From Henriciella mobilis (GTDB lineage Bacteria; Pseudomonadota; Alphaproteobacteria; Caulobacterales; Hyphomonadaceae), in assembly GCF_003576315.1 (NCBI RefSeq), contig NZ_QWFZ01000003.1:620001-684000 (forward strand): a stretch of DNA of 64,000 bases, given 5' to 3'. Made by a program: the position numbers and the translations under genes. The notes below the pieces were generated by a model. The model had not been told where the DNA came from and did no database searches. It was given only the letters and a program-made list of their open reading frames with translations. Position 1 is the first letter of the stretch. Each line of letters opens with the position of its first letter. Shown in pieces: positions 61,991 through 63,754 of this stretch.

Positions 61991-63754
61991 CTACGCGTCT
62001 TCCATCATCTTCTCGGCCTTCTTGATTGCCTGGTCCATGTTGCCGACCATGTAGAAGGCCTGCTCGGGCAGGTGGTCATACTCGCCTGCGATGAGGCCCT
62101 TGAAGCCCTTGATCGTGTCTTCGAGCTTGACCTGCTCACCCGGCGAGCCGGTGAAGACTTCGGCCACGTCGAACGGCTGGGACAGGAAGCGCTCCACTTT
62201 CCGGGCACGCGCGACGACCATCTTGTCCTCTTCCGACAGCTCGTCCATGCCGAGAATGGCGATGATGTCCTGAAGCTCCTTGTAGCGCTGCAGGATCTCC
62301 TGCACGCCGCGGGCGACTTCATAGTGCTCTTCGCCAACGACCATCGGGTCGAGGATCCGTGAGGAGCTGTCGAGCGGGTCAACGGCCGGGTAGATACCCT
62401 TTTCCGAGATCGCGCGGTTGAGAACCGTGGTCGCGTCAAGGTGGGCGAAGGAGGTGGCCGGGGCCGGGTCGGTGAGGTCGTCAGCCGGAACGTAGACGGC
62501 CTGGATCGAGGTGATCGAGCCCTTGGTCGTGGAAGTAATACGCTCCTGCAGCTGACCCATGTCGGTTGCCAGGGTCGGCTGGTAGCCCACAGCGGACGGG
62601 ATCCGGCCGAGAAGGGCGGACACCTCGGCGCCGGCCTGGGTGAAGCGGAAGATGTTGTCGACGAAGAACAGGACGTCCTTGCCTTCCTGGTCGCGGAAGT
62701 ATTCGGCCTGGGTGAGGCCAGTCAGGGCGACGCGGGCACGGGCACCGGGCGGCTCGTTCATCTGGCCGTAGACCAGCGCCACGCGGCTTTCGCCGTCGAG
62801 ATCGATCACGTTGGATTCGATCATTTCGTAATAGAGGTCGTTGCCTTCGCGCGTCCGCTCGCCGACGCCGGCGAAGACCGAATACCCGCCGAACAGCTTG
62901 GCGATGTTGTTGATCAGTTCCTGGATGAGAACCGTCTTGCCAACGCCGGCACCGCCGAACAGGCCGATCTTGCCGCCCTTTGCGTACGGGCAGAGAAGGT
63001 CGATGACCTTGATGCCGGTGACGAGGATTTCGGCTTCGGTCGACTGGTCGACGAATTCCGGGGCCGGGGCGTGGATCGGCGCGCGCTGCTTGGTGTTGAC
63101 CGGGCCGCGCTCGTCGATCGGCTCACCGATGACGTTCATGATGCGGCCGAGCGTTTCCGGGCCAACCGGCACGCGGATCGGCTCGCCAAGGTCCTTCACC
63201 GGGTGGCCGCGAACGAGCCCTTCGGTGGAGTCCATGGCGATGGTACGGACCGTGTTCTCGCCGAGGTGCTGGGCAACTTCGAGCACCAGGCGGGTGCCGT
63301 TATTGTCCGTTTCGAGGGCGTTGAGGATGTCCGGCAGTTGGCCGTCGAATTCAACGTCGACGACGGCGCCGATGACCTGAGAGATTTTGCCGGTGGCGTC
63401 GGCTGCAGAGCTGCTCATGGAAGGCGTCTCCTTGGGAGCGGGTGATGTTTTTGGCTTGGAAGCCGGCTTGGATGTTGCCGCCGGCTTAGGGGCAGATTCT
63501 TTGGCGGGCGCAGCGGCCGGAGCCTTGGCTTCGGCTTCGGCAGGCTTGCAGACGCCGCAGGCGCGGGTGTCTTTCTGCTTCAGCGACTTGGCGGTCTTTT
63601 CCGCCTCGGCGAAGGTCGCGAAGGGGCCGTGCCACTTGTCGTCATCATTGGTCTGGTCGCCGCCGACGCCCTGACCATGATTGCAATAGCGGCAATCGCC
63701 TGCGTGGATGCGTGCACGCTTGTTGGAGAAGTGTTCGTAAACCCAGAAATCCAT
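61991..63754 (-). CDS. atpD: ATP synthase F1 beta subunit with N-terminal four-cysteine domain fusion
   Basis: The frame encodes 587 residues. Residues 113-587 are a full beta subunit: [15 protein letters not shown], Walker [33 protein letters not shown], Walker [17 protein letters not shown] and [17 protein letters not shown]. Residues 1-71 form an added domain with C21/C24 (CRYCNHGQG), [13 protein letters not shown] and C66/C69 (CGVC), a probable metal-binding fold. Residues 72-112 are an Ala/Pro/Lys linker. An AAGGAG nine bases before ATG 63418 ([10 protein letters not shown]) allows the ordinary subunit to be made as well. The far start at 63754 has a weaker AGGA. I cannot name the added domain. 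Confidence 0.93.

Follow-up and report, generated by a model that had tools for sequence, protein, structure and literature searches.

The atpD gene of Henriciella mobilis, which encodes the beta subunit of the ATP synthase F1 part, carries an in-frame N-terminal extension in which a Cys/His domain is joined by a linker to a complete AtpD with a start site of its own. The fusion is conserved in related bacteria, and both the domain and the internal start are under selection. Based on these comparisons we consider it probable, at roughly 60%, that atpD is a dual-start gene yielding a plain beta and a long beta, the latter bearing a leashed Cys/His module that would serve as an accessory tether or adaptor on F1. 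The sequence evidence for two starts is strong, and that for function is weak. Within the literature searched, the fused atpD is a real, conserved and previously undescribed variant of a known enzyme. Among the literature matches listed, which cover the literature in part, none describes an AtpD of these bacteria that is extended or has two starts, and no two-start case for atpD was found.

Architecture and conservation of the fused atpD gene

The window, i.e. the whole stretch of 64,000 nucleotides that was analysed, contains on its minus strand one open frame (61991-63754) that encodes a protein of 587 amino acids (Table 1); measured from stop to stop, the frame has 590 codons. The original prediction had described this frame with its cysteines, its linker and an internal AAGGAG-ATG, all of which are present as described. 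The extension had been characterized as a four-cysteine domain; the cysteines stand, and with the addition of His17 the domain has five candidate metal ligands. The AtpD portion is identified by NCBIfam TIGR01039, which spans residues 121-583 (E 3.9e-254, profile positions 2-462 of 462) and scores 843.5 bits for the whole protein against a cut-off of 462.85. The gene lies behind atpG, the operon position expected of an F-type beta subunit. While the full-length family match and the gene order are shared with bacterial AtpD, the protein differs in carrying an additional 112 residues at its N-terminus, among them a folded Cys/His module, and in having the selected internal start. The two other matches to the fused protein in the same genome are only 27 and 32% identical, and no second AtpD was found there.

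Table 1. Features of the fused atpD locus (positions within the window).
Feature	Position	Strand	Remarks
3' end of atpG (gamma)	63764-64000	-	stop codon 63764-63766; 9 nt separate it from the long atpD ATG
Long ATG of the fused atpD	63752-63754	-	
Cys/His domain, codons 1-71	63542-63754	-	71 aa; H17, C21, C24, C66, C69; W41-H-G-P-F
Ala/Pro/Lys-rich linker, codons 72-112	63419-63541	-	41 aa; fast evolving, length varies
AAGGAG, predicted internal ribosome-binding site	63428-63433	-	9 nt ahead of the internal ATG
Internal ATG, codon 113, plain AtpD start	63416-63418	-	ATG in 36/36 fused genes
Complete AtpD (ATP synthase F1 beta), stop included	61991-63418	-	TIGR01039; PF00006, PF02874 and PF22919 above cut-off
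Stop codon of atpD	61991-61993	-	

In all 36 fused genes compared, the long ATG lies 0-23 nt behind the atpG stop, which fits translational coupling. In one unfused relative (L177, genome G094) atpG and atpD are some 1.5 kb apart, and the gap holds a 314-codon frame that looks methyltransferase-like by eye. On the other side of the gene in the window, an enoyl-CoA hydratase/isomerase gene on the opposite strand (61089-61925, +; PF00378, E 2.5e-41) parts atpD (61991) from atpC (60614-61021). Of 27 named loci, four (L059, L061, L064 and L066) have an enoyl-CoA hydratase gene between atpD and atpC and one (L068) has it behind atpC; in most of the others atpC comes close behind atpD. Further along, an indoleamine 2,3-dioxygenase-like gene (59331-60512, +; PF01231, E 1.1e-80) adjoins a gene for an Lrp/AsnC-type regulator (58774-59235, -), and the two likely form a tryptophan-degradation unit.

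Related genomes, to which the original prediction had pointed as a check, do carry the extension: it was found in 25 of 29 genomes of the genus, and the other four have either a plain AtpD (G009, G014) or no AtpD at E <= 1e-150 (G013, G019). Within the family, 40 of 105 genomes hold the domain, every time in the atpD frame. This frame is at least 580 amino acids long in 39 of them; in the fortieth (G031) the domain, the linker, the internal Met and the first AtpD residues are present, and then the contig ends. The named carriers (27 loci) comprise Henriciella, Ponticaulis (P. koreensis among them), two Hyphomonas loci including H. johnsonii, and other Hyphomonadaceae. Matches were obtained in 44 of 398 genomes of an order sample (10 of them outside the family), in 6 of 385 of a class sample and in 8 of 398 of a phylum sample, and none outside the family was an AtpD fusion; these samples overlap and cover each family sparsely, and in most genomes scoring was confined to the 14 or 15 best first-look candidates, so that some matches may have been missed.

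Judged from substitution rates, the domain is under purifying selection, its median dN/dS of 0.137 lying between those of the AtpD core (0.076) and the linker (0.383; 315 of 630 pairs, namely those with an AtpD-core dS of 0.15 to 1.2 and a defined domain dS). Across an alignment of 30 domains, 22 from fusions and 8 from elsewhere, H17, C24, C66 and C69 never vary, and C21 is kept in 29. The low dN/dS and the invariant ligand candidates together argue that the extension is a maintained protein part and not a read-through tail. A sequencing error or a chance in-frame extension upstream of atpD could in principle mimic such a gene, and chance open frames upstream of atpD were indeed seen in two unfused relatives (G050 and G073: 560 and 538 codons). 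For the fused gene this explanation is ruled out for all practical purposes, since the same domain recurs in the atpD frame throughout the genus and family samples, evolves under the constraint just given and has a confidently predicted fold.

The internal start as a selected signal

Several comparisons make a strong case that the internal start is a selected signal. The beta start within the frame is ATG in every fused gene, Met is scarce in the linkers (3 of 1804 residues), and AAGGAG stands ahead of the internal ATG in 22 of 22 distinct same-genus sequences. Within 24 nt upstream of the beta start, the motif [AG]AGGAG[AG] occurs in 29 of the 36 fused genes and in every one of the 35 unfused genes of this clade, but in none of nine genes outside the clade. 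As a control, 382 further ATGs that lie in frame in the AtpD core of the fused genes were compared, and none is preceded by the motif. The motif is missing from seven fused genes, the Ponticaulis-like g7 group, where AAAGGGG takes its place; these genes count against the dual-start reading. Across 514 codon columns the mean normalised synonymous diversity is 0.75, and its minimum of 0.195, the lowest of 510 five-column windows, falls at codons 108-114, exactly where the ribosome-binding site and the start codon lie; this pattern is typical of DNA that serves a second function. The fused frame contains a selected internal ribosome-binding site and start, one of the features expected of a dual-start gene. 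The internal start of the original prediction is strongly borne out by this comparative evidence, and the two products that we infer from it are well supported.

As the internal site resembles the start of the unfused relatives, it could have been inherited as a relic of the ancestral start, with the long beta as the sole product. We regard this as improbable because the synonymous positions at the site are the most constrained of the gene, whereas a relic in a fast-evolving linker should decay, and because unfused members of the clade use the same site as their only start. If both starts are used, the ratio of the products is not predictable, since the computed pairing with an assumed anti-SD sequence is similar for the two (mean -7.7 for the long and -8.3 for the internal start, the internal one being stronger in 22 of 36 genes), and several long starts pair best within the 3' end of atpG. 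Two starts in the same frame are known from other bacterial genes, e.g. infB and clpB, which give a long and a short product. The principle would be the same for atpD, where the two products are predicted.

The Cys/His domain and its relatives

The fold prediction suggested along with the original prediction gave a confident model of the domain. AlphaFold2, supplied with 26 sequences, yields a mean pLDDT of 84.5 and a pTM of 0.73 for a strand-strand-strand-helix-strand arrangement (E3-8, E13-18, E39-45, H48-57, E62-65). The model of the full-length protein (mean pLDDT 48.5, pTM 0.33) is too poor for docking claims, and in this poor model the linker residues 76-117 lie below a pLDDT of 50.

A likeness to the N-terminal zinc domain of Ada (PF02805; PDB 1u8b, 1zgw) had been put forward before the structure search. 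The atpD domain has a similar end motif, ...C-x2-C-x-P, and its spacing H17-x3-C21 ... C66-x2-C69 recalls the C-x3-C ... C-x2-C of Ada. The best match among solved structures is the Ada domain on DNA (1u8b, rank 1 of 54 in the PDB, with Ada again at rank 12), with Foldseek values that are not significant (TM 0.42 by query length, E 1.2, probability 0.33, rmsd 4.0). HHalign against 18 Ada domains from 22 loci gives a probability of 16% over 21 columns, and the score of 21.1 exceeds those of all 200 column-shuffled controls (maximum 19.3). The fold likeness to Ada is suggestive, not significant. PF02805 is absent from the Pfam matches at E <= 1 for 19 domains and has no match in the H. mobilis genome. 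DUF6233 (PF19746) matches all 19 domains of the alignment over their C-terminal third at E <= 1 (best 8.1e-6), the domain of the window scoring 20.2 bits, below the cut-off of 27.6. The domain thus weakly resembles the Ada/DUF6233 zinc domains, and the weakness of these fold and profile matches counts against the dual-start reading with its metal-binding module. Sequence searches returned no solved-structure relative at E <= 10, PHROGs gave chance-level matches only, and none of 148 matches at E <= 10 in the viral Foldseek library reached E <= 0.001.

Stand-alone homologues, for which a search had also been proposed, do exist as short frames in the order, class and phylum samples. The domain occurs alone in one 91-codon frame of the order sample and, in the class and phylum samples, in frames of 72-101 codons (G415, G450, G533, G864) and in a frame of 171 codons (G760). 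No stand-alone copy was seen near atp genes, and the neighbours of four of them share no common theme. In the order sample the domain also forms the C-terminus of seven transposase-like frames of 244-454 codons (L092-L096, L121, L122), which belong to another family of the order, and of two 236-codon frames (L090/L091), presumably GIY-YIG-like by their motif, for which Pfam gave no match and the sole NCBIfam match is excinuclease C (E 0.046). The transposase-like call covers seven of the ten non-family architectures and was checked by Pfam for three, with a match under the cut-off for L092, over it for L093 and none for L095; L093 belongs to the IS1 family (PF03400, E 1.1e-5, over the cut-off; NF033558, E 5.2e-13, under its cut-off). 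Among viral contigs 22 stretches fit the search pattern, none of them a relative of the domain, and one stand-alone domain used as query found no match in phages. In plasmids the same two records, from Mesorhizobium and Bradyrhizobium, were found with either of two queries.

The association with transposase-like proteins, in the case of L093 of the IS1 family, raises the alternative that nucleic acid, for example the atp mRNA itself or the nucleoid, is bound by the long beta, which would act as an autoregulator or anchor through an activity kept from transposase or nuclease relatives. The top structure match, not significant, is likewise to a DNA-repair domain on DNA, and the 22 fused domains all share R13, R15 and R22. 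We nevertheless hold this alternative to be unlikely: nucleic-acid binding by the relatives is itself an assumption, and the loop comprising residues 30-40 is acidic in all 22 fused domains (net charge -1 to -6) but basic in all eight others (+1 to +3). The mean net charge is -0.5 for the fused and +3.4 for the other domains. The acidic loop and the invariant arginines taken together favour a specialised partner on the side of the synthase, a protein or a cation, over DNA or RNA.

The linker, which looks flexible and evolves fast, could also be the site of a cut that releases a small free metal protein and leaves a near-normal beta, the fusion then ensuring equal production of both instead of a joint function. 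Stand-alone versions of the domain elsewhere are consistent with this. We give cleavage a low probability, as none of the 105 family genomes searched contains the domain as a separate gene and no conserved cleavage motif was seen in the linkers compared.

Gain, loss and possible role of the extension

To follow the history of the fusion we used trees of 80 genomes from the family sample (36 fused, 44 unfused; truncated or redundant ones left out), built on AtpG and AtpD in all 80 and on AtpA in 76. All fused genes fall within one clade of 71 tips. A single gain requires eight losses, i.e. nine changes in total, compared to an unrestricted minimum of eight. Support at the base of the clade is weak (0.48 to 0.87), and the domain may conceivably have been acquired a second time, e.g. 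in Hyphomonas. The domain has been lost repeatedly. In G014 it is gone, while the last part of the linker and the AAGGAG, both common to its fused sisters, are retained, and this site has become the only start. Sequence identities further indicate that the module has been swapped by recombination at least once among near-identical Ponticaulis-like atpD genes (L195, L168 and L212 of G079, G081 and G085, respectively): G079 and G081 share 94.2% of bases in the AtpD core and 89.2% in the linker but 63.8% in the domain, where G079 and G085 share 96.2%. A seeming insertion of 75 codons in the AtpD of G081 was discarded, as it is a run of N.

The absence of the extension from 44 of the 80 relatives in the trees marks it as accessory and not as a core part of the synthase. 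A module missing from many relatives cannot be essential to catalysis, and since the domain is dispensable its role is expected to be conditional. The N-terminus of beta lies at the crown of F1, near the delta subunit, which is where the original prediction would have the extension project. In the dual-start mechanism that we propose, ribosomes finishing atpG would start again at the long ATG, which lies a few bases further downstream, and produce the long beta, of about 63 kDa by the estimate made with the original prediction, which would consist of a folded and probably zinc-binding Cys/His module, a flexible Ala/Pro/Lys leash and an ordinary beta. Ribosomes binding the internal AAGGAG would produce the plain beta. 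Because the genome has a single AtpD, F1 would then contain a mixture of plain and long beta, on which the module may act as an accessory tether, the acidic central loop of the fused form pointing to a protein (or cation) partner. A more specific version, which we put forward tentatively and consider rather doubtful, is that the dual-start atpD dopes the three betas of F1 with the long form, whose metal-binding module, drawn from a mobile domain family that occurs on transposases as well and specialised by the acidic loop, would link or regulate the synthase by metal or redox state.

A precedent for a lineage-specific add-on to F1 is the alphaproteobacterial zeta inhibitor, which is reported to anchor mainly on beta (PMC9317440). 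Zeta (PF07345) is a separate subunit, while the atpD module is fused to beta and, as far as tested, unrelated to it. The zeta gene is also present in the H. mobilis genome, and the module therefore does not simply replace zeta.

The role of the Cys/His domain on the transposase-like proteins is worth a look in its own right. Few proteins are as conserved as the beta subunit, of which F1 is assumed to hold three identical copies. A clade with a folded, selected module on its sole beta gene and with the plain start kept would provide a natural test of F1 heterogeneity and of beta tethering. Culturable strains are among the carriers (Henriciella, Ponticaulis koreensis, Hyphomonas johnsonii), and the relatives that lost the module may serve as natural controls.
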